From an uncultured Latescibacterota bacterium (GTDB taxonomy: Bacteria; Latescibacterota; UBA2968), in the NCBI GenBank assembly GCA_951812755.1, contig OX638329.1, positions 1,721,339 through 1,785,338 on the forward strand: 64,000 nt of DNA, given 5' to 3'. The notes under the pieces are model-generated. The model saw only the letters and a list, made by a program, of their open reading frames with translations. It did not search any database and had not been told where the DNA came from. Position numbers and translations under genes: made by a program. Of the stretch, positions 14,064-38,361 are shown in pieces. Every line of letters begins with the position of its first letter. Within the stretch, counting starts at the first letter, position 1.

Positions 14064-15455
14064 TTATTCCCGATACGCGGGATTGGGCGTGGGTATCACA
14101 GCGCCGGTATCTGTCAGGAATTGGTCTATCAATTTGTCCAATTCGCAGACCAGATCGGGGTATTCGTCCGACAGATTATTTGTTTCGCCAATGTCTTCCG
14201 ATAGGTTGTAGAGTTCTACGCGGTCGCTCAGGTCGTCGTTGTCGCAATAGAATCGGATGAGTTTCCAATCGCCTTTGCGAACATAAGTCGATGGCAGGCC
14301 ATCTGCTGCTGGCGTATAGTGCGGGAAGTGACAGAAAATGGTGTCCCGCGCAAGGGGTGCGCCGCGAAGGGCGGGTGCAAAACTGATGCCGTCAACCGAT
14401 TCAGGGGCGTCGAGGCCGCAGAGTTCGGTCAGTGTGGGAAAGAAATCGATGCTTTGCACGATTGCCTGGTCGTTGCGGCTGCCCGCTTCAATCTGGTTGG
14501 GCCACGCGACAATCAGTGGTTCGCGGGTGCCGCCTTCATAGATATTTGCCTTGCCACCTCTCAGAGGTGCGTTGCTCGTGATGGGTATATCGACATAATC
14601 GGGATGGACGTTTTCTGTCGCGCTCCAGTGTACTCCGCCGTTGTCGGAAAAGAAGATCACGATGGTATTGTCTAAAATTCCCTCTTCCTCCAGCGTTCCA
14701 ATTAATTGTCCTACCGCGTCATCCATTGTTTCAACCATGGCTGCGTAAACGGGATTGTGCTGGGGGTCTTCGATATCGACTTTTTGCGCGTATTTTTCTA
14801 TTACATCCTGTTTGGCGTGCCAGGGTGAATGTACGGAAAACTGCCAGAAATGGAGATAAAAAGGTGTGTCTTTGTTTTCGCGAATAAATTCCATGGCTTC
14901 TTGTGCCATGCGATCTTCCAGATGCTCGCCGGGTTCGCCCTTATTGGGATAGACTTTCCACGGCGCAAACCAGCCATCGGCCAATGGACTGGGGGCAGGT
15001 GTGTGCGGGATATCGATATCGAATCCGTGTTCAAACGGGCTATAAGGCTCGGCACCCAGGTGCCATTTCCCGATGTGTGCGGTTTTATATCCCGCATCGC
15101 GAAATACTGACGATAGGGTTTGATATTCTGTGCTCAAGCGGGTGACGCTTTGCGCGACCAGGGCTTTGTTGTGCGGCGGTCCTTTTTCGCTTAAAAAAGA
15201 TTCGAGTACAATGCGGTCCAGATGGCATCCCGGTGTTGTAATGCCCACGCGTGCGGGCCACAATCCCGTCATGATGCTCGCGCGAGTGGGTGAACACAGC
15301 GGATTGGCTGCGTACGCATTGGTAAACATCATGCCGCGTTTGGCAAGGGCGTCGATATTTGGGGTTTTGCAAAATGCGCTGCCGTATAAGGACGTATCGC
15401 GCCAGCCCAGGTCGTCTGCGAGAATGAATAATACATTTGGTTTGTTTTTTTGCAT
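14064..15455 (-). CDS. Sulfatase (formylglycine-dependent)
   Basis: A 463-aa sulfatase of the alkaline-phosphatase superfamily. The signature CSPTR at Cys54 is the site that maturation enzymes convert to formylglycine; ADDLG near residue 14 supplies metal-binding aspartates, and FSDNGG near residue 270 a further pair. No signal peptide is visible at the chosen start (15455, GAGG Shine-Dalgarno), so either the enzyme is cytoplasmic or the secretion signal is missed. Such enzymes remove sulfate esters from sugars of polysaccharides. A sulfatase fits the carbohydrate-active genes of this window, but the substrate is not readable. No maturation enzyme is encoded here. Confidence 0.93.
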   Translation of the reverse strand: MQKNKPNVLFILADDLGWRDTSLYGSAFCKTPNIDALAKRGMMFTNAYAANPLCSPTRASIMTGLWPARVGITTPGCHLDRIVLESFLSEKGPPHNKALVAQSVTRLSTEYQTLSSVFRDAGYKTAHIGKWHLGAEPYSPFEHGFDIDIPHTPAPSPLADGWFAPWKVYPNKGEPGEHLEDRMAQEAMEFIRENKDTPFYLHFWQFSVHSPWHAKQDVIEKYAQKVDIEDPQHNPVYAAMVETMDDAVGQLIGTLEEEGILDNTIVIFFSDNGGVHWSATENVHPDYVDIPITSNAPLRGGKANIYEGGTREPLIVAWPNQIEAGSRNDQAIVQSIDFFPTLTELCGLDAPESVDGISFAPALRGAPLARDTIFCHFPHYTPAADGLPSTYVRKGDWKLIRFYCDNDDLSDRVELYNLSEDIGETNNLSDEYPDLVCELDKLIDQFLTDTGAVIPTPNPAYRE

Positions 15456-15468
15456 GAGATCCTCTATT

Positions 15469-16614
15469 TCAGACTTTATCAATTCCCTCTTGGGTTTCGG
15501 CAATCAGCAGATCGACAACGTCGCGCAATGCCTCTATTTCAGTGGCACCTTCCAGGGTGCGGATGCGAAAATGGTCAACCTGCCGGTCCGCACTGCTGCC
15601 GTCGCGGATGATTTCGGATACGCGGTGTAATTCGTCTTCGCAGCCGAGTGCGCGGGCGTCTTCGGCTAATTGTTCAATTAGTCCGCGTGCGTAGTCGTCG
15701 ATGTCCATGCGCCCGCCGTCGTGCGTATCACCCAGGAACGCAAATACCCCGTAGCGCTGTGCAAGCCAGCGATTTTCGGCGATGATTTCGGTGCGCGGCT
15801 CGGGAGGCAGGGTGCCTGCCCGCGCCTGTCGCAGCAGCATGCGGATGAGGGATGCGTAGAGTGCGGCTATGCATACTGCGTCTTCAACGCGCGAACAGGT
15901 GTCGCAGATGCGTATTTCCACTGTTGGATAAGCGTTGCCGGGGCGGATGTCCCACCAGAGTTCGCTGCCGTCTTCGATGAAGTTCAGGCGCTGGTAGTCT
16001 TCTACGAGTTGCTCGTATTCGGCAAGAGAATACAGGGCCCCGGGGAGGCCGGTGCGCGGGAGGGCACTGAAGATGTTCAAGCGATAGGACTTGAAGCCAG
16101 TGAGGTTTCCGCCGCTGAACGGCGACGAGGTGGATAGCGCGTGGAAGAGGGGCAGGTACCGGCGAAGTGCGGTCATGACGCGGATGCGTTCATCCTGGTT
16201 GCCGAAGCTGGCGTGGATATGCATGCCCCCGATGAGCAACCGCCGTACGGATTCCTGGTACGTGACTGCAAATTCCTCATAACGCTCTTTGGGCGTGGGC
16301 GTCTGTGCAGACCACGACGCGAAGGGATGAGTAGAGGCAGCTATCACTGCGGCACCGTATTGTGCGGCACCCTCAATGACTATCCGACGGGTCTCTATCA
16401 GTGCCGTGCGGACTTCGGCTATTGATGTGCAGACGCGGGTATTGGCCTCTATTTGGGAGCGGAGAAATTCTGTTACTACTTTGTGCGGTCCGCTGTTCTT
16501 TTCGCAAACGGTGAGGATGCCCGGGTCGGGGTCGGCAAGCAGGTCGCGGGTGTTGGGGTCAACGAGAAAGAATTCTTCTTCGACGCCGAGGGTGATTTTG
16601 AGGTTTTTATCCAT
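15469..16614 (-). CDS. Carboxylate-amine ligase of the GCS2/YbdK family
   Basis: A 381-aa ATP-grasp-like ligase of the glutamate-cysteine ligase type 2 group. It opens with LGVEEEFFLVDP, the conserved start of the family, and contains the GGMHIHASFG and WWDIRPGNAYPTVEIRICD blocks that form the active site. YbdK-type enzymes have weak glutamate-cysteine ligase activity, and their true substrates are mostly unknown. Length is standard. It lies 13 bases upstream of the sulfatase start and 10 bases downstream of the HAD hydrolase, in one run of minus-strand genes. Confidence 0.92.
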   Translation of the reverse strand: MDKNLKITLGVEEEFFLVDPNTRDLLADPDPGILTVCEKNSGPHKVVTEFLRSQIEANTRVCTSIAEVRTALIETRRIVIEGAAQYGAAVIAASTHPFASWSAQTPTPKERYEEFAVTYQESVRRLLIGGMHIHASFGNQDERIRVMTALRRYLPLFHALSTSSPFSGGNLTGFKSYRLNIFSALPRTGLPGALYSLAEYEQLVEDYQRLNFIEDGSELWWDIRPGNAYPTVEIRICDTCSRVEDAVCIAALYASLIRMLLRQARAGTLPPEPRTEIIAENRWLAQRYGVFAFLGDTHDGGRMDIDDYARGLIEQLAEDARALGCEDELHRVSEIIRDGSSADRQVDHFRIRTLEGATEIEALRDVVDLLIAETQEGIDKV

Positions 16615-26316: not shown

Positions 26317-27015
26317 TTATTTGATCTCGAGCAATTCCAATTCGAATATAAGCGTTGAATTGGGGCTAATTTGCCCGGCCTGTCGCGCACCGTAGGCCAG
26401 ATAAGATGGGATATAAAGTTCCCATTTCGATCCCGCGGGCATGAGTTGCAGGGCTTCTGTCCAGCCGGGAATGAGTTGATCTACGCGAAATTGCGCTGGT
26501 TCTCCTCGGCTATAAGAACTGTCAAATTCCGTGCCGTCGAGCAATGTCCCGCGATAGTGGCATACTACTGCATCGGTTTTTTGGGGTTTCTGCCCGTCAC
26601 CGGCTTTGATCACTTTGTATTGCAAGCCGCTGTCCAATGTCACCACGCCTTCTTTTTTCATGTTTTCTGCGAGAAAAGTCTCGCCAGCCTTTTTGTTTTC
26701 TGCTGCCATTTTGTTTTTCTCCGCGAGTTGTTGTGCCCTTTGTTCTTCTTGTGTCTCCATTAGAATTTTTAGTGCTTCGTCAGAGGAAAGCAGGGGAGAT
26801 TCTCCAGTATAACCGTCTTTGAACCCCTGTACAAATACATCCACATCAATTGGCATGTCCAGTTGCTTTTTCAAATTATCGGACAGATTTAAGCCCAGCG
26901 CATAACTCAGCTTGTGTTCCTTGTCCTCGAGGTTGACTTCTACAAATTCGGGTTCTTCTTTTGCCTGGCAACCCAATAAGCCAGCGGCAATGAATACGGC
27001 AAAAAGACGCTTCAT
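26317..27015 (-). CDS. FKBP-type peptidyl-prolyl isomerase lipoprotein (FkpA/Mip-like)
   Basis: A 232-aa periplasmic folding factor. Residues 1-15 form a signal peptide ending in the lipobox LLGC (Cys16). A helical dimerisation domain with a long Lys/Glu-rich helix covers about residues 30-125, and the C-terminal FKBP domain (about 130-232) carries the DGTEFDSSY, VIPGW-like LIPGWTEAL and AYG motifs of the active site. Such proteins isomerise prolyl bonds and act as chaperones for exported proteins. It forms its own transcription unit, with a terminator right after the stop. Confidence 0.95.
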   Translation of the reverse strand: MKRLFAVFIAAGLLGCQAKEEPEFVEVNLEDKEHKLSYALGLNLSDNLKKQLDMPIDVDVFVQGFKDGYTGESPLLSSDEALKILMETQEEQRAQQLAEKNKMAAENKKAGETFLAENMKKEGVVTLDSGLQYKVIKAGDGQKPQKTDAVVCHYRGTLLDGTEFDSSYSRGEPAQFRVDQLIPGWTEALQLMPAGSKWELYIPSYLAYGARQAGQISPNSTLIFELELLEIK

Positions 27016-27089: not shown

Positions 27090-28613
27090 CTAAATAGCCT
27101 GAAATCGCGTTTTTACTTCCGATAGCACAATATGTGGAATATCTTCTGTGCGTTCAACCGCATAAACGCAAATGTGATCTGCAGCTGCAGCCCGCTGGCG
27201 AAATCGATGGGCGTCCCGATTTTGCGCTACATGAACAGCGGTTACCCGGTTTTCTTTTTGGATTAGAAATTGCATGAGGGCATCGAGATTGGTAATCTGC
27301 ATATCTGTAATGAGAAAAATATCCACATGATTTTTGAGAAGGGGTTCCAGATCGGGCAGATGTAATGCGGTTCCACCGCCGAAGTAGCGACACAGTGCGA
27401 AAAATACGCGCTTGCGATCTCTTGAGAAATCCAGGATCTCTTTCCCCCCTGCCTGTGCATCGCTAAAATTGTAAACGGCCACGCGCTTTCCCCGTCGCAA
27501 ATACGCGTCGGCCGCGCATCCGGCACCTAAGACAGCGTGGGATATTTCTCGGCACGGATCGACCATACTGCCCGAGGAATCGACAATGACCACACAATCG
27601 GGTATGCCATCGCCATCGCCGTGGGTTTCGCCATCTCGCCAGTTCCACATCTGGGAAATGCCCGGCATGACCCGCCCAAAACTCGTCCACACATCGATGT
27701 GCTGGACGGGTTTGCCAATTTCCCAGGGCGAATGTGAATGCGGATGTAATCCGCCTACCTTTTCCAATGGCATGGTTTGCACGGGCAGGCGAAATGCAGA
27801 TGCGCGCGCCATGTAAAATAAGAGGTCGGCATCCGTGGGCGTGCCTTTGCCCCGGCCCATATCGGGCATCATATTGGCATCTTGTAGTTCGTCGGCAAAA
27901 TCGCGCACCATTTCTCGAAAGGCATAAAATCCCTGCTCGGCAAATTGCGCCATTCCCTCCGCGAGTTCGCCTGCGGAATACTGCTGGGTATCGCCCATCA
28001 TGCCACCCTGTCCATTCCCATCGTCCATTTCTTTTTGGATCAATGGGGCAATTACCTGTGCAAACGACCGAAGGCTGTCACCCCACTGCGAGGCGTCCAG
28101 ATAGGGTATGCGGGCGAGCCGATCTACTTCGCCGCGATCTTCCACACCCAAATTTTCACCCCAAAGGCGCTGATACAATGCCCGAATTACGTCTGTTGCT
28201 TCATTTGATTCAGTATGGCGATACACTTCGGGCAATTTCGATTCGCGCTCGCGCACGGCATGGGTATCGACTACCACGTCCGAGAAATACTCGACCACCT
28301 GCTTGACCAATGCCCCATCTAATAATACGGGTTTGAGCGCGGCATATAGTTTTAAGTGCGTCTCAAAATCCCAGGGACAAATGGTGTGATGCCCCACGCC
28401 GTGATCCAGGAGTGCAGAGGTGGCGTCTTCTATGTCCATTACTTGCGCGAGGGCGGCCAGCCGATTGGCATTCAATTGGATCACTTTGTCCGTCATTTGA
28501 ATGCTCGCGGCTTCGTCGCCTGTTTCGATTACTTCTGGCGTCGGCAATTCGGGAAATAGGTGTCGCTTGCGAACAGCGGGCCAAACGCGCTGGATGATGT
28601 CGTTGAAGTTCAT
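27090..28613 (-). CDS. VWA-domain protein, third gene of a MoxR/GXGXG/VWA module
   Basis: A 507-aa protein read from the ATG at 28613; the longer frame upstream is out-of-phase sequence of the preceding gene. The C-terminal third is a von Willebrand A domain with an intact MIDAS: DSSGS at residues 345-349, a Thr in FGGGTA (415) and an Asp in LITDMQI (437). The N-terminal part has a DHGVGHHTICPWD segment (His71, His75, His76), which looks like an HxxxH metal site without the usual glutamate. It overlaps the GXGXG gene by 4 bases (ATGA). VWA proteins next to MoxR ATPases usually act in cofactor insertion or complex assembly. The target is unknown. Confidence 0.88.
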   Translation of the reverse strand: MNFNDIIQRVWPAVRKRHLFPELPTPEVIETGDEAASIQMTDKVIQLNANRLAALAQVMDIEDATSALLDHGVGHHTICPWDFETHLKLYAALKPVLLDGALVKQVVEYFSDVVVDTHAVRERESKLPEVYRHTESNEATDVIRALYQRLWGENLGVEDRGEVDRLARIPYLDASQWGDSLRSFAQVIAPLIQKEMDDGNGQGGMMGDTQQYSAGELAEGMAQFAEQGFYAFREMVRDFADELQDANMMPDMGRGKGTPTDADLLFYMARASAFRLPVQTMPLEKVGGLHPHSHSPWEIGKPVQHIDVWTSFGRVMPGISQMWNWRDGETHGDGDGIPDCVVIVDSSGSMVDPCREISHAVLGAGCAADAYLRRGKRVAVYNFSDAQAGGKEILDFSRDRKRVFFALCRYFGGGTALHLPDLEPLLKNHVDIFLITDMQITNLDALMQFLIQKENRVTAVHVAQNRDAHRFRQRAAAADHICVYAVERTEDIPHIVLSEVKTRFQAI

Positions 28614-29386
28614 TTTGTTTTGGTTCCTCTGAGCATCTGGTCGCGGTGATAAATCGCGCCGCCTTCTGCATTGCCCACCCCCCCCAGGCGTCCATTGATG
28701 TGGATTTCGCCAGCTTGCATTTGTTCTCCGATAGATCTGCCAGCGTCTCCCGAGACTTCGATCCGTCCGTCTATCATGCCTGCGCCGAGGTAGTGACGGA
28801 CATTTCCCTCGACCTTCAGGTAGCCTCCCATGAGCGAAATGCCCGTGAGGTCGCCCAGGTCGCCCACAATGGTCAGTGTGATGCCTTTGCGAAGGTGATA
28901 TCCCATAAGAGATAGGCGCAGGTCGTGACCCGTGAGATCGAGATGAATATCCTCTTGGGATGATGCGTTGCAAAAGGCCGATAAGAATAAGCCGAGGGGT
29001 TCCATGACAAAAAAAGCCGCGTCATTGCTTTGCAGGGCGTGCGCGCAAAATGCTTCGATATCGGTCATTTCCCAATCGATTTGTCCCACAATCCGCAAGG
29101 CCACAGCATAGGTCGATTCAATGGTTTTGCGATCGGCTTGCCAGAGTCCCTCGCCTACGCATTCGTCGATTAGTGCGCGATAAGCTGCTGTCAATCGATC
29201 CATTGCCGCGGCATGAGAGGCGAGAATTTCATCCATGGGCATGGCGCGTTTTTTGCGTGTCTCTTCGACAAATTCGACAAAGGGATTGCGCTTTGTAGAT
29301 AGCAAGCCGTTGACTTGCACTGCGTTTTCGGGGTTCAAATCGGATGGTACAATCCGTTCAAATTCTCGAAATGGATTTTGTCGCAT
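28610..29386 (-). CDS. GXGXG-type beta-helix protein, second gene of the MoxR/VWA module
   Basis: A 258-aa protein. The N-terminal half is helical with no recognised motif. The C-terminal half, from about residue 145 to 250, consists of glycine-rich repeats (such as GDLGDLTGISLMGGYLKVEG and AGRSIGEQMQAGEIHINGR) that match the beta-helix of the GXGXG family. That fold is the C-terminal domain of glutamate synthase and subunit C of formylmethanofuran dehydrogenases. The start at 29386 is the first ATG followed by a plausible N-terminus; its Shine-Dalgarno sequence is weak. It lies between the ATPase and VWA genes with a 4-base overlap on one side, so the three form one operon. Confidence 0.78.
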   Translation of the reverse strand: MRQNPFREFERIVPSDLNPENAVQVNGLLSTKRNPFVEFVEETRKKRAMPMDEILASHAAAMDRLTAAYRALIDECVGEGLWQADRKTIESTYAVALRIVGQIDWEMTDIEAFCAHALQSNDAAFFVMEPLGLFLSAFCNASSQEDIHLDLTGHDLRLSLMGYHLRKGITLTIVGDLGDLTGISLMGGYLKVEGNVRHYLGAGMIDGRIEVSGDAGRSIGEQMQAGEIHINGRLGGVGNAEGGAIYHRDQMLRGTKTK

Positions 29387-29408
29387 GTCTGGCTCTGTAA
29401 AATTGGAA

Positions 29409-30731
29409 TTACGAAAATTCTGGACGCACAGGCTCTTGTCCCAGATCGCGCATAATTTCCATGTAAATGGGGTGTTCGCCCTGAATGGGTGTCTCGTCTT
29501 CACCATTCAAGATGCGATTGGCAGTCATCAGAGCCGTTTGGATGCGTTCGCTCTGTTCGGTATAGCGCCGAAAGACCTGGCGCACCGCTTCTCGCGCTCT
29601 GTGAATGGGCAATACATCATCCCGGTGATCTTGCGTTTCTTCTTCATCTCGCCATTGGATGCGATGAGCACATGTGTATGGCAATATCGTGCGAATATGT
29701 TCGAGATGCACTTCTTTGTCGCGCAGTACCCAGGCAAGTGCCTGTGCGTAGCGCCGGATGGAAATGGGCAGGCGATTGGACGGGCAGGTTTGTACTTCGT
29801 AACACAGGTAGCCCGTGTAGTGACAGCCTTCGCCACAGACTTCATTTGTGCGTTTTTGTCCGTATTTGCAGCAGAAAGACAGTTCGGCCAAAAAGGTCCG
29901 AATATAGGCACTGGCATCGGCCTGGAAAGGCAATGCGCTCATTTCACTGCGAATGGTTTTGCGTTCGGCACGCCCCAGGGTGGGCACGGACAAACGCTCG
30001 GAAATCGCTTTTCCGTAATCCGTGCAAATCGCTTCTACCTCTGCTTCGGCATTGGGATTGAGCAGGCACGCCTGAAGTGCTTGCTCGCGTTGTGGATCTC
30101 GCAGGAGATGTGCAGGAGAGGATTCGGTGCCGATCATCCAGGACAAATTCGCGCCCGGATATTTGGATTCCACCATTACGTCAAAGCGATCCAAAAGGGG
30201 TACAACGATGGTATTTGTGCCGCGGTCCTGATAATTGGCCGTTGCAAACAAACAGTATTCATCATTGATTTGCATCTGGTTCAAGTAGGACCAGTTGCCG
30301 CGATCCACGCCATTGAGGATCAAGCTCTGCTTTGTTTCTGGCAGGCGGTTGATTTCATCTACAACTTTGACGGGTAAGACGGAAAATGCCGACCAGACCA
30401 CATCTTCTTCGCCGCGGTTGAGTGCGCCGAGGTTTGGGCGTCCGACAATTTTTTCTTCGGTCTGTTCGGGATGGCCGCTCACTTCGGCTTCCCAAACCGC
30501 CCCCAATGGCATGCGGTATAGCAGTGCGCCGATATACTCCGCCGATGTTGTTTTGCCCAGGCCGGGTTCGCCCACGATCAGAATTTTGCCGCCCAATAAT
30601 CCCGTTAGTGTGCTGAGGAGCAAAGCGGCATTGTGTTTTTGTCCTTCGATCTCCAGGTCTGCCCGATTAAAATACAACCGATCCTGGATAAAGGTCAAAA
30701 TATCGCTTACTGTTGTTTGTAAATCGGCCAT
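29409..30731 (-). CDS. MoxR-family AAA+ ATPase with a cysteine cluster
   Basis: A 440-aa AAA+ ATPase. Walker A GEPGLGKT is at residues 54-61, Walker B VVDEIN at 123-128, and the sensor region ATANYQDRGT at about 164-172. Between about residues 287 and 316 there are six cysteines (287, 288, 299, 303, 310, 316) in a CCKYGQK...CGEGCHYTGYLC...CP arrangement that could bind an iron-sulfur cluster or zinc. MoxR proteins are chaperones that work with VWA partners, and here the partner lies two genes downstream. The transporter permease gene ends 9 bases upstream, so the trio may be transcribed with the ABC transporter. Confidence 0.9.
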   Translation of the reverse strand: MADLQTTVSDILTFIQDRLYFNRADLEIEGQKHNAALLLSTLTGLLGGKILIVGEPGLGKTTSAEYIGALLYRMPLGAVWEAEVSGHPEQTEEKIVGRPNLGALNRGEEDVVWSAFSVLPVKVVDEINRLPETKQSLILNGVDRGNWSYLNQMQINDEYCLFATANYQDRGTNTIVVPLLDRFDVMVESKYPGANLSWMIGTESSPAHLLRDPQREQALQACLLNPNAEAEVEAICTDYGKAISERLSVPTLGRAERKTIRSEMSALPFQADASAYIRTFLAELSFCCKYGQKRTNEVCGEGCHYTGYLCYEVQTCPSNRLPISIRRYAQALAWVLRDKEVHLEHIRTILPYTCAHRIQWRDEEETQDHRDDVLPIHRAREAVRQVFRRYTEQSERIQTALMTANRILNGEDETPIQGEHPIYMEIMRDLGQEPVRPEFS

Positions 30732-30740
30732 GTTTTGATC

Positions 30741-31568
30741 TCAGTCTGCCTGCGGAGAGGCGACAGAGCGCCGGCGCAGCCATTCGACGGTGAGCAGTAG
30801 CAACACGGCAAAGGCGATCAGGAATGTTGCGACGGCGAGGATGGTCGGGCTGATTTGCTCGCGGATGCCCGCCCACATCTGGCGCGGGATTGTGCGCTGT
30901 TCGATGCCGCCCATAAAAAGGACTACGACTACTTCGTCGAAAGATGTTGCAAACGCAAAGAGCGCGCCAGAAATAACGCCCGGTGCGATTATCGGTAGTT
31001 GTACTCTGCGGAACGTGAGTAATGGTGAGGCGCCGAGGCTTGCCGCAGCGCGCGTCAGGTTTGTATCAAAGGCGGATAGGGTAGCGGTTACGGTAATTAC
31101 GACAAATGGCGTGCCCAGTGCAGCGTGAGATAGGATCAATCCGATGTGGGTCTGTGCGAGGCTCAGGGATGAGTAAAAAAAGAACATGCCCGCCGCAGAG
31201 ATGATCACTGGCGTGACCATCGGCGAGATTAATAGCGCCATTGCGAAGCGGCGACCGGGCATGGCGGGGCTGGATAGCCCCAGCGCGGCGAGTGTGCCCA
31301 GCGCGGTTGCCAGTGCGGTAGAGGCGATGCCGATGATCAGGCTGTTGATCAGTCCGCGCGTCCACAGTTCGTTTTCGATGATCTGCCGGTACCAGCGCAG
31401 GGAATACGCTTCGGCATCCAGGCGCAGCATGCCTTCGGTGAAGGTGAAGTAGGGTTCGGCATTGAAGCTCAGCGGTACGATCACCAGAATTGGCGCGATC
31501 AGGAACGCGAAGATCAGGGTACAGGAGGCCAGGTAAGCGCCCCGGCCAATGCGTTGTGTCGAGATCAT
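30741..31568 (-). CDS. ABC transporter permease, polyamine/PotC-type
   Basis: A 275-aa inner-membrane permease with about six transmembrane helices and the cytoplasmic coupling loop AAASLGASPLLTFRRVQLPIIAPG near residue 180 (the EAA motif). This is the shape of the second permease of spermidine/putrescine-type importers. It follows the first permease with a one-base gap, so they are translationally coupled. The ATPase and binding proteins are about 2.2 kb away on the same strand. A polyamine-like substrate is inferred only from family; it may differ. Confidence 0.92.
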   Translation of the reverse strand: MISTQRIGRGAYLASCTLIFAFLIAPILVIVPLSFNAEPYFTFTEGMLRLDAEAYSLRWYRQIIENELWTRGLINSLIIGIASTALATALGTLAALGLSSPAMPGRRFAMALLISPMVTPVIISAAGMFFFYSSLSLAQTHIGLILSHAALGTPFVVITVTATLSAFDTNLTRAAASLGASPLLTFRRVQLPIIAPGVISGALFAFATSFDEVVVVLFMGGIEQRTIPRQMWAGIREQISPTILAVATFLIAFAVLLLLTVEWLRRRSVASPQAD

Positions 31569-31569
31569 G

Positions 31570-32784
31570 TTAGCCCAATTTCATGCGGTCAATGCCGACT
31601 ATGCGGTCGTATAGCAGATAGAGCGCGATTACGCATACCAGCAAGATGCCGCCAAGTGCCCCAGCCAGACTCCAGTTGAGCGAGGTCTGCATGTGGTAGG
31701 CGATCATGTTGGAGATGAGTTGTCCGGTGCTGCCGCCTACCAGAGCGGGGGTGATGTAGTAGCCTATGGCGAGGATGAATACCAGCAGTGATCCGGCACC
31801 TACGCCGGGCAGGGTCTGTGGCCAGTACACGCGCCAAAATGACTGAAAAGAACTCGCACCCAGCGATGCCGCGGCACTCATCTGGCCCGGTGGGATGGCG
31901 CGCATGATGGAGTAAAGGGGCAGGATCATAAAGGGCAGGAGCACATGGGTCATTGCCACGAGTGTGCCAGTCATATTGTAGATCATGGCGAGGCGGCCAT
32001 CGTCGCCGATCAGCCCAAGTGTGACGAGCAGGTCGTTGATTACGCCCTGGGTCTGGAGCAGTACGATCCAGGATGTTGTTCTCACCAGGAGCGATGTCCA
32101 GAAGGGTACGAGTACGAGGATGAGGAGCAGGTTTGCGATGCGCGGAGGCGAATGCGCGATCAGGTGGGCGATGGGATAGCCGAGCAGCAGGCAAAGCGCG
32201 GTGATGCTCAGGCTGACGATAAAGGTGCGCCACAAGAGGGCCAGATAGATGCGGCGTTCTGGAGGCTGACGATCGATGGAACCGTCGGACAGGGGTTGCA
32301 GGTCGAGGGCATTGAGATAGTGCCGCGCGGTGAAATGCGCCCCAGCACTGCGGATAGCGTGCCAGGTTTGCACGTCGCCCCATGCGGTATTAAGGCCGAT
32401 CATGGCGTCACGCCAGGGACCTTCGCGGACATCTTGCAATTCTCTCGCGCTACGCGTGAAAACGCTGCGAAGTCCCGAATGCACGCGGTTGACGCGGGTG
32501 GCGACCCGACCCAGTGAGCGATCCTGGCGCGCTTTTAATAGTTCGCGTGCAGCCGTTGCGTACACCACCTCGTCAGGCGTACTATTTCCATCCCACTCTT
32601 TCAGCAGTTTGAGGGTTTCGGGCAGGGCATCCGCGACGGTGGGATCGTACACACTGTGGACGAGCATTGTCGCCAAAGGCGCGATAAAGGTGACGGCAAT
32701 GAAAGCCAATAGCGGTAGCACCAATCCCGTAGCGCGTAGCCGCGGGCGGAGAGTGTTGGTTTTAATGTTTGTATTTGATTGCAT
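31570..32784 (-). CDS. ABC transporter permease, polyamine/PotB-type, with long periplasmic loop
   Basis: A 404-aa inner-membrane permease. It has a first helix at about residues 20-40, then an unusual soluble insertion of about 150 residues (about 45-190), and five more helices with the EAA loop AAASLGASSFQSFWRVYWPQTLPG near residue 308. Normal PotB is about 285 aa, so the periplasmic loop is extra. It might help dock the binding proteins. No clear Shine-Dalgarno sequence lies before the ATG at 32784. A hairpin and repeat lie just upstream, which suggests the operon was broken there. Confidence 0.9.
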   Translation of the reverse strand: MQSNTNIKTNTLRPRLRATGLVLPLLAFIAVTFIAPLATMLVHSVYDPTVADALPETLKLLKEWDGNSTPDEVVYATAARELLKARQDRSLGRVATRVNRVHSGLRSVFTRSARELQDVREGPWRDAMIGLNTAWGDVQTWHAIRSAGAHFTARHYLNALDLQPLSDGSIDRQPPERRIYLALLWRTFIVSLSITALCLLLGYPIAHLIAHSPPRIANLLLILVLVPFWTSLLVRTTSWIVLLQTQGVINDLLVTLGLIGDDGRLAMIYNMTGTLVAMTHVLLPFMILPLYSIMRAIPPGQMSAAASLGASSFQSFWRVYWPQTLPGVGAGSLLVFILAIGYYITPALVGGSTGQLISNMIAYHMQTSLNWSLAGALGGILLVCVIALYLLYDRIVGIDRMKLG

Positions 32785-32806
32785 AGGTTAGTTTTGATTT
32801 CGTGGG

Positions 32807-32833
32807 AAAACTCGTGACACTGTTGCGAGTTTT
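32807..32833. terminator. Hairpin between the antitoxin-like gene and the permease
   Basis: An 8-bp perfect stem (32807-32814 with 32826-32833; AAAACTCG arms) with an 11-base loop. Since the arms begin and end with A4/T4, it could act as a weak terminator in either direction. It lies 22 bases upstream of the permease ATG and may limit read-through from the island into the permease genes. Confidence 0.45.
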
Positions 32834-32863
32834 TACCCTAAATCACTCGAAGTAGCCGGACTT

Positions 32864-32899
32864 AGGGGGTAACTTGGGGGGTAACTTGGGGGGTAACTT
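32864..32899. repeat. Three 12-base G6-TAACTT repeats
   Basis: Three near-perfect tandem copies of a 12-base unit. On the minus strand they read as Val-Thr-Pro-Gln repeats in an open frame that stops right afterwards. VTPQ repeats are common linkers in Fic- and AlbA/RecG-like DNA-binding proteins, so this may be a remnant of such a gene. No intact gene is present. Confidence 0.6.
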
Positions 32900-32925
32900 C
32901 CCCAGTCCGATCTTTCCCTCCTGAG

Positions 32926-33219
32926 TTAGACGCCTTCGTACTTTTGGATCTGGCTGATAACCTTGAACAAGCTACGGGCTTGTGGGTTGCCATTTGGTTC
33001 GAACATTTGGATGAAGCTCTTGGGTGATTTATGAGTGAGATTGCCGAGTTCCTCAAATCCGATTGTCGCGTTGATATAGTCGCGCATCACGGCTTTACCA
33101 GTGTCCCCATCGCCAGAGCGTATGCACCGGATGGCTTCTTTTATCAATTCCTCCCGAAAGGCTGGGTCACGCTGAACACGGGCCTTTATCGTTTCTTTGA
33201 AATCACATGTAAGTGCCAT
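32926..33219 (-). CDS. HigA-like antitoxin/regulator (orphan)
   Basis: A 97-aa protein of the COG3636-type family of predicted addiction-module regulators. It contains the pattern REELIKEAIRCIRSGDGDTG, an RDYINATIGFEELG helix and a C-terminal HTH-like region ending in SLFKVISQIQKYEGV. In most genomes this antitoxin follows a RelE/HigB toxin gene, but there is none in the 42 bases upstream, where the neighbour is a lipoprotein gene. The base composition is richer in AT than the transporter genes on both sides, which fits recent arrival. It may act as an orphan regulator or be a leftover of a lost pair. Confidence 0.75.
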   Translation of the reverse strand: MALTCDFKETIKARVQRDPAFREELIKEAIRCIRSGDGDTGKAVMRDYINATIGFEELGNLTHKSPKSFIQMFEPNGNPQARSLFKVISQIQKYEGV

Positions 33220-33261
33220 ATTTTTTTGTATTTTATACCATTTATACTCTCACCACAGAAG

Positions 33262-34125
33262 TTATCGTGCGCTTCGCTGACCAAGCTCTTGGAGAACTAC
33301 ACCGAGTTGATCTATTGCGTTGAGAGCTTCTTCTTCAAGGGCTTCAAACCGCCGATGTATTACCTCGTTTCTCATGGTTATCAGGACTTTCGCGGCCTGC
33401 TCTGCCTCCTCCTCAATGTATCCCAAGAATCCCTTCCTTGCTACATCCTTTCCAGCATATCCATAACTGCTATCCCTCCACAGCGTGACAAAGCGCTTGT
33501 GTGGTTTATTGTCTCTATAAAAGATAATTGATTCCCGAAGTTCTACCCCCAATACATAAGAGGCGAATATCTTATCTTCGTTCCATAAAGCGTCAATAAT
33601 AAGCAAGAGATAATAGGGGTTGGCGGAATTCGATAATGGCACACCATATCGTCTCAGCGTTAACTCGAATTTGTCCTTCGCACGTTGTTCGGGAAGTATA
33701 TCCTCAGCCGCCTCATTCATTGTAACATGGACTTCTATACTGTTCAGACCTGAAAAGCATGTCTCCTCATCAGCGATAGGTGCAAGCGACTCGGCAACCA
33801 GTTTTTTCAACGCATTCTCGTAGAACAAGGGTATCTCAGCAGGCACTTCAACTCTCTTTATGACTTCTTTCTCCACCAACGTAGTGTCTCGTAAGATAAT
33901 CTTCTTTTCCACCAACATAGTATCCACCACTACAATGGTATCTCGTAAGGTGATGGTATCTCTCACAGTAAAAGTATCTACTCTTGATCCAGAGAACCAG
34001 GAGCCAGTTTCTCCTTTCTCTCCTGCGCGATCACAGCCTGTCATCAACATCAGGCTTACAGCAAGGATGGAAAGGATACCTGCTATTCTTGAACAGCGTA
34101 TTAATGCTGGTTGCAACTGGCTCAT
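33262..34125 (-). CDS. Predicted lipoprotein of unknown function
   Basis: A 287-aa protein with a lipoprotein signal peptide: hydrophobic residues 14-29, lipobox LMTGC with Cys31. A stretch of alternating DT/V residues (about 50-90, with repeated RDTI and DTTLVEKE) forms a beta-rich or fibrous linker. A soluble domain of about 190 residues follows, with many charged helices. No family recognised. It is flanked by an orphan antitoxin gene and repeats, and lies in the AT-richer island inside the transporter operon. Confidence 0.75.
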   Translation of the reverse strand: MSQLQPALIRCSRIAGILSILAVSLMLMTGCDRAGEKGETGSWFSGSRVDTFTVRDTITLRDTIVVVDTMLVEKKIILRDTTLVEKEVIKRVEVPAEIPLFYENALKKLVAESLAPIADEETCFSGLNSIEVHVTMNEAAEDILPEQRAKDKFELTLRRYGVPLSNSANPYYLLLIIDALWNEDKIFASYVLGVELRESIIFYRDNKPHKRFVTLWRDSSYGYAGKDVARKGFLGYIEEEAEQAAKVLITMRNEVIHRRFEALEEEALNAIDQLGVVLQELGQRSAR

Positions 34126-34349
34126 ACCCTGTCCTATCGCAACTTTTTTCTCTCGCTCACCCTGAGTACTCTTTCAAAAAAATTTGTTGATATGTTTTTT
34201 CGATAGACTGGATTGCGGCTAACCCCCTGCCGCAATGACAACCGTCGTTCGTCACTCCGGCGGAAGCCGGAGTCCAGTGGGTTTAGACACGAAACTTATT
34301 TGAAAGATTACTGAGTTTTTTCATTCAACCAGATCGTCCAATTCCACGT
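34126..34349. repeat. Intergenic stretch with two REP-like repeats
   Basis: No gene is seen here. Two copies of the GTCATTGCGGC...GCCGCAATCCAG-type repeat lie at 34208-34239 (reverse orientation) and 34251-34277 (GTCACTCCGGC...GCCGGAGTCCAG). They belong to the family of the array at 9807. The rest is AT-rich with no clear promoter or terminator. Confidence 0.7.
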
Positions 34350-34469
34350 TTAAAACGGCCGAGAGTCGATGGCGACACAATCTGAGTTATCATCCAGCAA
34401 GTCGATCATGCGGCGGTAATCCTCAAAGGGAAGGACAGCATATTCGGGCCGGTCATCCTTTTTAGCCCT
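34350..34469 (-). pseudogene. Antitoxin gene fragment (Xre/HigA or Phd-like N-terminus)
   Basis: Directly after the cupin stop codon and in the same frame, the minus strand encodes about 39 residues: AKKDDRPEYAVLPFEDYRRM, then IDLLDDNSDCVAIDSRPF and a stop. The PEYAVLPFEDYRRMIDL block is the typical N-terminus of antitoxins whose DNA-binding half is missing here. There is no start codon ahead of it, so it is a dead fragment. Its position next to an orphan HigA-like gene suggests a decayed toxin-antitoxin region. Confidence 0.6.
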
Positions 34470-34856
34470 CTATTCGCACCTGCCGCCGATCACGAGCAAA
34501 AAGGCACTATCCTCCAGAGCTTTGACACTATGGGGTAAGTGGGCAGCGCAAACCGCAGCGTCACCTGTTCTCAATGGTTTAGATTCAGTGGCTGTGGAGA
34601 ACTCGAGATGTCCAGATAGGGCTGTGACGGTGATTGGTCCAGGGGCGGTATGTTCATGAAGCACGGCTTGGGCCTTTAATACTATCAAGACAACCGTCAA
34701 ATCATTTCCATGCACTAAGGACAAGGAGTTTCGTCCCGCATGGTCAATAACATCCTCCGTCATGAGTTGTTCGGCCATACTCAACAGCGAAAAAGACGTA
34801 ACGGTAGAATCGATTATTTCGACAGGCCGAAAAGGACGTTCATAGGCTTGGCTCAT
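34470..34856 (-). CDS. Small cupin-domain protein
   Basis: A 128-aa single-domain cupin. The conserved double-psi fold is suggested by VLHEHTAPGPITVTALSGHLEF (motif 1, with His and Glu ligands) and the later LPHSVKALEDSAFLLV (motif 2, a His). It could bind a metal and act as an enzyme or a sensor. There is a stop followed in frame by an antitoxin fragment. It lies within the island between transporter genes and has no obvious functional partner there. Confidence 0.8.
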   Translation of the reverse strand: MSQAYERPFRPVEIIDSTVTSFSLLSMAEQLMTEDVIDHAGRNSLSLVHGNDLTVVLIVLKAQAVLHEHTAPGPITVTALSGHLEFSTATESKPLRTGDAAVCAAHLPHSVKALEDSAFLLVIGGRCE

Positions 34857-34982
34857 GATTAGAGTTCCTTAAGAATTTATGTGAGTTATCTCAAATGCCG
34901 CGATGTTGCGACTCTCTCGGCTGAACTCTACTTACCTGGCGATTTCAGACGTCTTACTTAGATGGGCAGCATGATACTTGTC

Positions 34983-36089
34983 TCACTGAGCCAGCCAGGC
35001 ACTGAAGCGCTCGTTCATTTCGTCGATGTGATCGCTCCACCATTCCCAGGAATTTCGCAGGGCGCGCTTAGAATTTTGCGGGTTATTGGGCATGTGGGGG
35101 TTCATGTCCACACCCTTCTCGGCGTGTGTCGATATCAGTGCCTCCGCAGATATGCGCGTGGGGCTGTAGGCGATGTAACGGCCGACGCCAGCTATGGCTT
35201 TCGCTGTTGCGGAAAAGTGGAGAAACTTCTTTGCAGCTTCGAGGTTCCGCGTTCCCGCGACAATCACCAGTCCGCCCGTGTCCAGTATTTGCCCGTCCCA
35301 CACAATGACAAAGGGCTGATTTTCCAATACCTGTGCATTGAAGATGCGCCCGTTGTAGGCTGTGGACATCACTACCTCGCCATCGGCGAGCATCTGCGGT
35401 GGCTGTGCTCCGGCTTCCCACCATACGATGTGGTCTTTGATGGTGTCTAACTTGCGAAAGGCACGATCTACGCCTTCGGGCGTATTGAGGGTGGGATATA
35501 CTTTGTTGAGCGGTACGCCGTCGGCAATCAGCGCGAATTCCAGGTTTGCCAGAGGTGTGCGGCGCATGCCTCTGCGTCCGGGGAATTTTTCGAGGTCAAA
35601 GAAGTCGGCCATTGTGGTGGGTTTTTCACCCGGGATATTCTTCTCGTTGTACGCATATACGGTGGAGTAAAATATCGTTGCCGGGCCGCAATCCGTCATC
35701 GTTCCGAGCGGAAAATCTTGTGCCGCAGGCGTTCCATCGGCTCCTGCTGGTAGCGATTTGACAGGAATGGGTTCGAGCAGGCCCTCATCGCAGCCTCGCA
35801 CCATGTCGGGAATTTCCATATCGACGACGTCCCAATGCACATTGCCCGATTCGACCTGTGCGCGGATTTGTGCCAGCCCGCCGTTGTAGTCTTCGAGGTT
35901 GATTTTAATGCCTGTTTCAGCGGTGAACGCTTCGTGGTAGCCTTTGACACAGGCGCGCGCATAAGATCCGCCCCAGGAGACCACGGTCAGGGGTCGGTCG
36001 TTGGCAACTGCCCGACTCGCAGTTAATATCGCCAGTGCGGTCAGTACAATTAGATAAAATGCCGTTTTACACTTGTTTTTCCACTTCAA
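34983..36089 (-). CDS. Polyamine-type ABC transporter substrate-binding protein (copy 1)
   Basis: A 368-aa periplasmic binding protein of the PotD/PotF group. It has a cleavable signal peptide (residues 1-29, ending AVA) without lipobox, then a binding fold beginning RPLTVVSWGGSYARACVKG. It starts with TTG at 36089, supported by GAGGAGG at 8 bases. It is a tandem duplicate of the gene at 36155, with long identical stretches. The two lie downstream of the ATPase on the same strand. The ligand is likely a polyamine or another small cation, but family members also bind other compounds. Confidence 0.92.
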   Translation of the reverse strand: MKWKNKCKTAFYLIVLTALAILTASRAVANDRPLTVVSWGGSYARACVKGYHEAFTAETGIKINLEDYNGGLAQIRAQVESGNVHWDVVDMEIPDMVRGCDEGLLEPIPVKSLPAGADGTPAAQDFPLGTMTDCGPATIFYSTVYAYNEKNIPGEKPTTMADFFDLEKFPGRRGMRRTPLANLEFALIADGVPLNKVYPTLNTPEGVDRAFRKLDTIKDHIVWWEAGAQPPQMLADGEVVMSTAYNGRIFNAQVLENQPFVIVWDGQILDTGGLVIVAGTRNLEAAKKFLHFSATAKAIAGVGRYIAYSPTRISAEALISTHAEKGVDMNPHMPNNPQNSKRALRNSWEWWSDHIDEMNERFSAWLAQ

Positions 36090-36154
36090 GTTATGTCCTC
36101 CTCATATGGTATGGTTAGAAGATGCAGTAGTCTATAGGTGTTCAAACATATTCC

Positions 36155-37255
36155 TTACTGCGCCAGCCAGGTGCTGAATTGCTCGTTTATTTCGTCGATG
36201 TGAACGCTCCACCATTCCCAGGCATTTCGCAGGGCGCGCTTAGAATTTTGTGGGTTGTTGGGCATGTGGGGGTTCATATCGACATCCTTTTCGGCGTGTT
36301 TCGATATCAGTGCCTCCGCAGAGTGGCGCGTGGGGCTATAGGCGATGTAGCTACCGACGCCAGCCATGGCCTTCGCTGTTGAGGCGAAATTGAGAAACTT
36401 TTTTGCGGCTTCGAGGTTCTGCGTTCCCGCGACAATAGCGAGTCCAGACAGATCCAGTATTTGTCCATCCCACACGATGACAAAGGGCTGATTTTCCAAT
36501 ACCTGTGCATTGAAGATGCGCCCGTTGTAAGCCGTGGTCATCACCACTTCGCCATCGGCGAGCATCTGTGGAGGCTGCGCCCCGGCTTCCCACCATACGA
36601 TGTGGTCTTTGATGGTGTCCAATTTGCGGAAGGCGCGATCCACGCCTTCGGGCGTGTCGAGGGTGGCATATACCTTATTGAGCGGTACGCCGTCGGCGAT
36701 TAGTGCGAATTCCAGGTTCTCCTGGGGTGAGCGGCGCATGCCTCGGCGTCCGGGAAATTTTTCGATGTCAAAGAAATCGGCTATTGTGGTGGGTTTTTCA
36801 CCCGGGATATTCTCTTCATTGTACGCGTATATAGTGGAGTAAAACAGTGTTGCTACGCCACAGTCTGTCGATGTCCCGAATAGAAAATCCTCTTCCGCAG
36901 GCGTTCCGTCGGCTCCCGCTGGCAGCGAGTCGATCTCAACGCGTTCGAGCAGGCCCTCATCGCAGCCTTGCGCCCATGTCGGAAATCTCAAATCGACGAC
37001 ATCCCAATGCACATTGCCCGCTTGAACCTGTGCGCGGATCTGCGCCAGCCCACCGTTGTAGTCTTCGAGATTGATTTTAATGCCTGTTTCAGCGGTGAAC
37101 GCTTCGTGGTAGCCTTTGACGCATGCGCGTGCATAAGATCCGCCCCAGGAAACCACAGTCAGCGGTCGGTCTTCCGAGATATCACAGCCCAGAGTCAACA
37201 TCGCCAGCGCGGTTATTATCGCGGTGCATAATGTCTTTCTCTGTTTGGTATTCAT
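36155..37255 (-). CDS. Polyamine-type ABC transporter substrate-binding protein (copy 2, lipoprotein)
   Basis: A 366-aa binding protein, nearly the same as copy 1 in the mature part. Here the signal peptide ends in a lipobox TLGC (Cys24), so this copy is membrane-anchored while copy 1 is free in the periplasm. The ATG at 37255 overlaps the ATPase stop (ATGA) and has GAGGAGG upstream, so it is the first binding protein of the operon. The divergence is concentrated at the N-terminus and in residues around 80-130. Confidence 0.93.
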   Translation of the reverse strand: MNTKQRKTLCTAIITALAMLTLGCDISEDRPLTVVSWGGSYARACVKGYHEAFTAETGIKINLEDYNGGLAQIRAQVQAGNVHWDVVDLRFPTWAQGCDEGLLERVEIDSLPAGADGTPAEEDFLFGTSTDCGVATLFYSTIYAYNEENIPGEKPTTIADFFDIEKFPGRRGMRRSPQENLEFALIADGVPLNKVYATLDTPEGVDRAFRKLDTIKDHIVWWEAGAQPPQMLADGEVVMTTAYNGRIFNAQVLENQPFVIVWDGQILDLSGLAIVAGTQNLEAAKKFLNFASTAKAMAGVGSYIAYSPTRHSAEALISKHAEKDVDMNPHMPNNPQNSKRALRNAWEWWSVHIDEINEQFSTWLAQ

Positions 37256-38361
37256 GTCGTATCCTCCTCGTCGTCCGGGTCGAGTACCCGGCAGTCTGTT
37301 GGTGTCCAGCCGATGCGAATTTTATCGCCTTTCAACACGGCTCCGTGTCCCACGATATTGGGTATTTTTGCGATGAAATCCGAGGACTCACATACGTTCA
37401 TGCGAAAGCGCAGATGGTCGCCTAAAAAGGTGATGTCCTCGACTTTTACTTCGAGTTCGTTGGTGTACAGGCCCGGTTCGGGTTCGATGGCGACGCGTTC
37501 CGGGCGAATCGATAGCGTGGTGGCGTCGCCGCGCTGGCAGGGTGCAACGCGCAATGCCTGAATGATTTGGCCGCCGGTTTCCACTTCGCAGATGTCTCCA
37601 TTTACTTCTATCACGCGGCCGTGCAGGCGGTTGTTTTCGCCAATGAAGCGGGCTACAAATGAACGCGCTGGCTCTTCGTAGAGGGCCTCGGGTTCGGCAA
37701 TCTGCACAATGTCTCCCTCCTGCAGGACAGCGATGCGGTTCGACATTACCATGGCCTCTTGCTGGTCGTGCGTGACGTAAACGACGGTCACGCCGAGGCT
37801 CTGGTGGATACGGCGGATTTCGTACTGCATCTCTTCGCGCAGGCGCCGGTCAAGTGCGCCGAGGGGTTCGTCCATTAGCACCAGATCGGGTTCGAATACC
37901 AGCGCGCGGGCGATTGCTACGCGCTGCTGCTGACCGCCAGAGAGCTGGTTGGGGCGCCGGTCTTCCAGGCCGCTGAGGCGAACAAGGTCCAGGGCACGCG
38001 CTACGCGTTCGCGGCACTGTTCTCGGTCAAAGCCACGCACCTCGAGGGGAAATGCGAGGTTCCCGCCTACTGTCATATGCGGGAAGAGCGCGTAGCTCTG
38101 AAATACCATGCCAATGCCTCGCTTTCGCGGGGGCAGTGCGTGTACAGAACGCCCGTCAATGCGGATGTCGCCCGATGTGGGTGTCTCGAAGCCGGCGAGC
38201 ATCATCAAGCAGGTTGTTTTCCCCGACCCGGATGGGCCGAGCAGGGTCAGAAATTCGCCCTTGCGGACGCTGAAGGTGACGTTTTGGACAATTAGAGTGC
38301 GTCCATCGTAACTTTTGCAGACATTCTCAAATTCGACGTAGTTGTTATCATTTGCATTCAT
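37252..38361 (-). CDS. ABC transporter ATPase, PotA-type
   Basis: A 369-aa nucleotide-binding subunit. Walker A GPSGSGKT at residues 42-49, signature LSGGQQQR, Walker B LVLMDEPLGALD, and a C-terminal TOBE-like beta domain from about residue 240. Length is close to PotA (378 aa). It is the first gene of a minus-strand transporter operon: ATPase, two binding proteins, then, after the 2.2 kb island, two permeases. It powers import across the inner membrane. Confidence 0.95.
   Translation of the reverse strand: MNANDNNYVEFENVCKSYDGRTLIVQNVTFSVRKGEFLTLLGPSGSGKTTCLMMLAGFETPTSGDIRIDGRSVHALPPRKRGIGMVFQSYALFPHMTVGGNLAFPLEVRGFDREQCRERVARALDLVRLSGLEDRRPNQLSGGQQQRVAIARALVFEPDLVLMDEPLGALDRRLREEMQYEIRRIHQSLGVTVVYVTHDQQEAMVMSNRIAVLQEGDIVQIAEPEALYEEPARSFVARFIGENNRLHGRVIEVNGDICEVETGGQIIQALRVAPCQRGDATTLSIRPERVAIEPEPGLYTNELEVKVEDITFLGDHLRFRMNVCESSDFIAKIPNIVGHGAVLKGDKIRIGWTPTDCRVLDPDDEEDTT

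Follow-up and report, generated by a model that had tools for sequence, protein, structure and literature searches.

A three-gene set on the minus strand of a Latescibacterota genome was found to be a real, conserved and apparently previously undescribed variant of the MoxR-VWA ternary systems. We infer that the products, here named A, B and C in the order of transcription, act as a single MoxR-VWA-type chaperone that remodels proteins at the expense of ATP, similar to NorQ/NorD, with B as an adaptor or scaffold and with two putative metal sites; a probability of about 0.5 was assigned to this reading. The window (the whole stretch of DNA that was analysed, 64,000 nucleotides) belongs to a genome assembled as one contig of 6.53 Mb. 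The region 27090-30731 was occupied by exactly three genes, which are given below together with the downstream neighbour.

29409..30731, minus strand: gene A, a MoxR-clade AAA+ ATPase of 440 aa (AAA_5 and AAA_lid_2), assigned from Pfam and invariant motifs
28613..29386, minus strand, ATG at 29386 and stop extending to 28610: gene B, a dedicated third protein of 258 aa with a predicted helical N-terminal half and a GXGXG beta-helix C-terminal half
27093..28613, minus strand, ATG at 28613 and stop extending to 27090: gene C, a protein of 507 aa with a zincin-like N-terminal half and a VWA C-terminal half
26317..27015, minus strand: an FKBP-type lipoprotein PPIase, the downstream neighbour, kept beside the trio in families f1 and f2

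The gap between A and B was 22 bp, and the stop of B overlapped the start of C by 4 bp (ATGA), as reported by the first-pass annotation. A mechanical ORF call had placed the start of C at 28973; this was judged spurious and the ATG at 28613 was taken instead. The three co-oriented genes were all under purifying selection, with dN/dS values of 0.07-0.10 for A, 0.16-0.18 for B and 0.05-0.09 for C, so that B evolved at approximately two to four times the rate of A and C (0.16-0.18 compared with 0.05-0.10). Their order was also kept in relatives, and the three-gene set initially proposed from the window was upheld.

The start of A lay 9 bp past two PotB/PotC-like permease genes, and the FKBP lipoprotein gene began 74 bp downstream of C. 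Neither was accepted as part of the system. The permeases adjoined A only in the genus of the window, and the FKBP gene was present throughout the order, also in genomes lacking the trio, and was regarded as a neighbour only. Together with the FKBP gene, the YhbY, RsuA-type and SDR/aminotransferase neighbours were classed as housekeeping or lineage-specific. The permeases form part of a PotABCD-like importer (30741-38361) that includes two solute-binding protein genes side by side (34983-36089 and 36155-37255), and in its PotB-like permease of 404 aa the PotB match began only at residue 179. Between the importer genes, approximately 2 kb (32926-34856) encoded a 97-aa and a 287-aa protein; this stretch was missing at the corresponding place in loci L037 and L038, and related genes were found in L010. 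A short GTTACCCCCCAA repeat was present near 32870-32900, by the importer genes. Elsewhere in the window, a sulfatase gene with an SGSH_C domain was located at 14064-15503.

Within Latescibacterota, the trio was identified in 19 of 64 genomes, comprising all 15 genomes of family f1, one of six in f2 and all three in f6. In 14 of the 19, spread over the three families, A, B and C were contiguous and in order. For four genomes (G025, G026, G030 and G004) a contig end fell inside the cluster. In G038, which is assembled as one contig, A was found at 3.785 Mb beside permeases and B-C-FKBP at 0.785 Mb; A had moved 3 Mb away and all three genes were retained. As three families of the phylum share one gene order, the arrangement is more than chance. 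In searches with the B profile, 18 genomes were found to have B, either at full length or cut by a contig end, and every one of them also had A and/or C, and a further 67 genomes were matched over the repeat part only (columns ~155-244). As full-length B occurred only with A and/or C, B is a dedicated partner in Latescibacterota. It was kept across the trio genomes of the phylum and, in the loci seen, full-length B was never away from C and the three genes were conserved together, which bears out the suggestion that a GXGXG protein is a fixed partner of this MoxR-VWA pair.

Approximately 320 genomes of other phyla were then sampled. A and C were both matched at high score only in G285, with weaker C matches in G323 and G091. 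In G285 and G386, both of family f91, A was followed directly by C with no B. In G323, A was fused to an FGE-sulfatase domain and followed by C, again with no B. The phylum of G091 is probably Myxococcota (hereafter Myxococcota-like), and C was matched in 55 of its 193 genomes. The Myxococcota-like loci that were read had A, a middle gene of 274-292 aa and C, in that order. Neither GXGXG nor any other Pfam match was obtained for the three middle proteins scanned, and homology between the middle protein and the N-terminal half of B was not detectable (hhalign probability 0.3%), the two having only position and a similar size in common. The AAA motifs and the MIDAS were invariant in at least three phyla. 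As the A-C pair occurs elsewhere with no B or with an unrelated middle gene, the core of the system is A-C and the third protein varies by lineage.

Several features of these loci were recorded in passing. Both f91 loci (L060 and L112) were devoid of a third gene and of both putative metal sites described below, namely the lid cysteines of A and the His and Asp residues of C. In L113 (4785-7268), a MoxR-clade ATPase carries a fused FGE-sulfatase (formylglycine-generating-like) domain and is adjoined by a VWA protein with HEIGHH. In seven Myxococcota-like loci (L154 7929-9796; also L114, L145-L148 and L153), the set was followed by a conserved pair of genes, one for a protein of ~185 aa and one for an AMP-binding enzyme.

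For A, two features were located by alignment:

30546..30572, minus strand: Walker A motif GEPGLGKTT, residues 54-62, with K60 and T61 invariant in 30 relatives
29784..29873, minus strand: conserved lid Cys cluster (C287, C299, C303 and C310, with H304 and C316)

In the alignment of 30 relatives, the Walker A, Walker B, sensor 1, Arg finger and sensor 2 motifs were all invariant. The Pfam models AAA_5 (26.6 bits, cut-off 22) and AAA_lid_2 (26.2 bits, cut-off 22.7) were both matched above cut-off, whereas AAA_3, the usual MoxR model, was below it (19.3 vs 27 bits). Based on these scores, we class A as MoxR-clade-like rather than as a core MoxR protein. In a tblastn search of plasmids, A matched only a DUF58-linked MoxR, at 28% identity. 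In the lid, C287, C299 and C303 were present in all Latescibacterota and Myxococcota-like sequences and C310 in 25 of 27, with H304 and C316 in addition in Latescibacterota. The cluster was absent from the A proteins of f91 and G323. It is possibly a Zn or Fe-S site.

For C, three features were located:

27564..27581, minus strand: MIDAS motif DSSGSM, residues 345-350, completed by T415 and D437 (from alignment)
28386..28403, minus strand: HGVGHH, residues 71-76, HExxH-like with the Glu lost (from alignment)
28278..28280, minus strand: D112, a putative third metal ligand, kept and lost jointly with H71 and H75

The protein of the window alone gave a weak match to the VWA model (E 0.1); VWA_2 was matched by eight of nine family members, and the MIDAS residues D345, S347, S349, T415 and D437 were conserved wherever the sequence was complete. 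The description of C as a VWA protein with an intact MIDAS was thus correct. C ends after the VWA domain and is conserved from end to end; no match was obtained by plasmid tblastn, and the predicted structure, built from five close sequences, had a pLDDT of 32. In the motif alignment, in which some genomes were counted more than once, H71, H75, H76 and D112 were found in all Latescibacterota, all Myxococcota-like sequences and G323, and all were lost in f91. Position 72 was Glu in every Myxococcota-like and G323 sequence (HEIGHH) and Gly or Ala in every Latescibacterota sequence (HGVxHH), so that HExxH with the catalytic Glu was not seen in any Latescibacterota C. The N-terminal half is therefore best read, at the level of sequence, as a zincin-like domain that has kept its metal ligands and lost its general base. 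With the ligands kept and the Glu gone, it most likely binds metal or a client without cutting.

These residues also raise the prospect that the ancestral machine was an ATP-gated metalloprotease, formed by an AAA+ ring and a VWA-zincin, of which the Latescibacterota version would be a pseudo-protease serving as a regulator or unfoldase. The HEIGHH and Asp in the Myxococcota-like and G323 C proteins agree with such an ancestry, as do the loss of the Glu throughout Latescibacterota and a match of the C protein of L114 to Peptidase_M48 (PF01435). This match was, however, just under cut-off (20.2 vs 20.3 bits) and covered 33 residues, proteolysis is not known in the family, and f91 has lost the entire site and still kept the A-C pair. 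A protease ancestor was accordingly considered doubtful.

For B, the two halves were delimited as follows:

28952..29386, minus strand: N-terminal half, residues 1-145, with predicted helices (structure prediction at low confidence) and a conserved NPFxEF/NPFxxF motif
28637..28894, minus strand: GXGXG repeats, residues 165-250, with a ~19-residue period and five predicted coils (profile matches and AlphaFold)

The N-terminal half had no Pfam match and no known relative, and N34, P35, F36 and F39, near its start, were invariant in the family alignment. For the C-terminal half, the GXGXG model was matched by B alone at 21 bits, below the cut-off of 32.5, and by all eight aligned family members, the best at 1.6e-8. 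The family profile matched FwdC chains in the PDB at 2.7e-24, which substantiates the GXGXG beta-helix half first noticed in the translation. B also matched TIGR03122 (E 1.2e-17; 64 bits, cut-off 130.65) over residues 162-237 only. In the AlphaFold model, likewise built from only five close sequences and confident in the beta-helix only, strands started at residues 170, 189, 208, 227 and 244. A Foldseek search with this model gave nothing at E<=0.001, the top match being the FwdC-type chain 8rja_C. Plasmid tblastn returned FhcC-type matches only, and a scan of genome contigs with B returned close relatives only.

That B always adjoins C, and that its fold is found in FwdC and glutamate synthase as parts of large enzymes, could mean that B is itself the client: A and C would fold B or load a cofactor onto it, and B would then act alone or in a larger complex. 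Against this, C139 is the sole invariant Cys of B, and B shows no arrangement of His that would be usual for a cofactor site. In addition, f91 and G323 retain A-C in the absence of B, and in the Myxococcota-like loci the pair flanks an unrelated middle gene. From the f91 and G323 loci it follows that B is not generally required by the core. We regard B as client as a rather unlikely arrangement.

From the GXGXG fold, the first-pass annotation had drawn a link to large redox complexes, namely formylmethanofuran dehydrogenase and glutamate synthase, and this link was not sustained. No client gene was conserved beside the trio in the Latescibacterota loci, where the conserved neighbours were housekeeping genes only. 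The only other GXGXG match in the genome of the window was a 1529-aa frame of glutamate-synthase size, and such long matches were missing in one trio genome (G019) and present in many genomes with no trio. FwdC and GltB were therefore rejected as general clients. CobN/BchH was found in three of the 19 trio genomes and was absent from the other 16, including that of the window, which disposes of a chelatase as general client. CO-dehydrogenase-like large subunits occurred with and without the trio, and none was present in the three trio genomes of f6, so a Mo hydroxylase was likewise rejected. The trio as assembly factor for a known enzyme (a cobalto- or magnesium chelatase, a CO-dehydrogenase-type Mo enzyme, formylmethanofuran dehydrogenase or glutamate synthase) would fit the fold of B and the weak resemblance between A and BchI/Cob-chelatase models. 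In view of these three distributions, and with CO-dehydrogenase-like subunits common where the trio is lacking, a known-enzyme client is disfavoured as a general rule and was considered very improbable, although individual lineages may have such a client.

A chaperone role is established for MoxR-VWA pairs (PMC13036017, PMC9976466, PMC7159879). NorQ forms a hexameric ring, into whose pore the VWA domain of NorD inserts a finger. The MIDAS is believed to be the site at which the target binds, and ATP hydrolysis has been proposed to twist NorD, opening the target for Fe insertion (PMC13036017, PMC9976466). A general MoxR-vWA mechanism has also been described (PMC7159879). For the chaperone reading of the trio, homology to NorQ suggests that A would form a ring, onto which C would dock via its VWA domain. 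The metal-loaded MIDAS of C would then grip an acidic surface or peptide of the client, in the manner described for NorQ/NorD. B may be the client-recognition adaptor or a scaffold, because it is exclusive to A and C and faster-evolving; the helical half, which carries the NPF motif, may bind A or C, and the GXGXG coil may bind or mimic the client. The probably non-cutting N-terminal half of C would hold one putative metal site and the Cys cluster in the lid of A the second. Given these two sites, metal insertion into a client is plausible but weakly supported, and both could instead have a purely structural role. Of the chaperone originally proposed for these genes, the MoxR-VWA role and the fixed partner B were retained and the redox-complex client was dropped. 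A further, tentative extension is that the Latescibacterota trio arose from an AAA+-driven VWA-metalloprotease that ceased to cut and became a chaperone. This would make the trio a new MoxR-VWA class with two metal sites, in which the Glu was lost and the beta-helix protein B gained, B occupying the place that a different third protein holds in the Myxococcota-like machine.

Among the open-access papers searched, none mentions GXGXG together with MoxR, and the combination appears undescribed in them. The apparently zincin-derived half of C and the conserved lid Cys cluster of A are, as predicted features, new observations here. A close parallel in overall design is provided by the MoxR-vWA ternary systems with VMAP, iSTAND, FtsH or beta-propeller components (Burroughs et al. 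2020, PMC7159879), which share a MoxR-vWA core with one lineage-specific third protein. This parallel would also suit a biological-conflict (defence) system in the sense of those authors, the phylum-specific third component being B. The third protein of the trio is, however, of another kind: Pfam searches with the three proteins gave no VMAP, iSTAND, FtsH or beta-propeller domain, C has no variable effector domains, the genes are single copy and strongly conserved rather than highly variable, and PADLOC gave a weak P-loop match only. A defence role was considered improbable.

With NorQ/NorD, CoxD/CoxE, CbbQ/CbbO and RavA/ViaA, the trio shares a MoxR-clade AAA+ gene adjoining one whose product ends in a VWA domain with intact MIDAS. 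It differs from them in having the GXGXG-coil gene B, a zincin-like N-terminal half of C and a cluster of lid cysteines in A, and in the lack of target enzyme genes nearby. The beta-helix repeats of B resemble those of formylmethanofuran dehydrogenase subunit C (FhcC) and the C-terminal domain of glutamate synthase (GXGXG, PF01493), but the resemblance is confined to residues ~162-237, with fewer coils, an unrelated helical N-terminal half and no adjoining Fwd genes. M48-type metallopeptidases have in common with the C proteins of other phyla the HExxH and downstream Asp, whereas Latescibacterota C has Gly or Ala for the Glu, and the C domain is fused to VWA. If the chaperone reading is true, a class of third component would be added to the MoxR-VWA machines and an AAA+/VWA couple would be tied to an HExxH-derived metal site. 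The versions occurring in nature with B, without B and with another partner would then be material for asking what role third components play.
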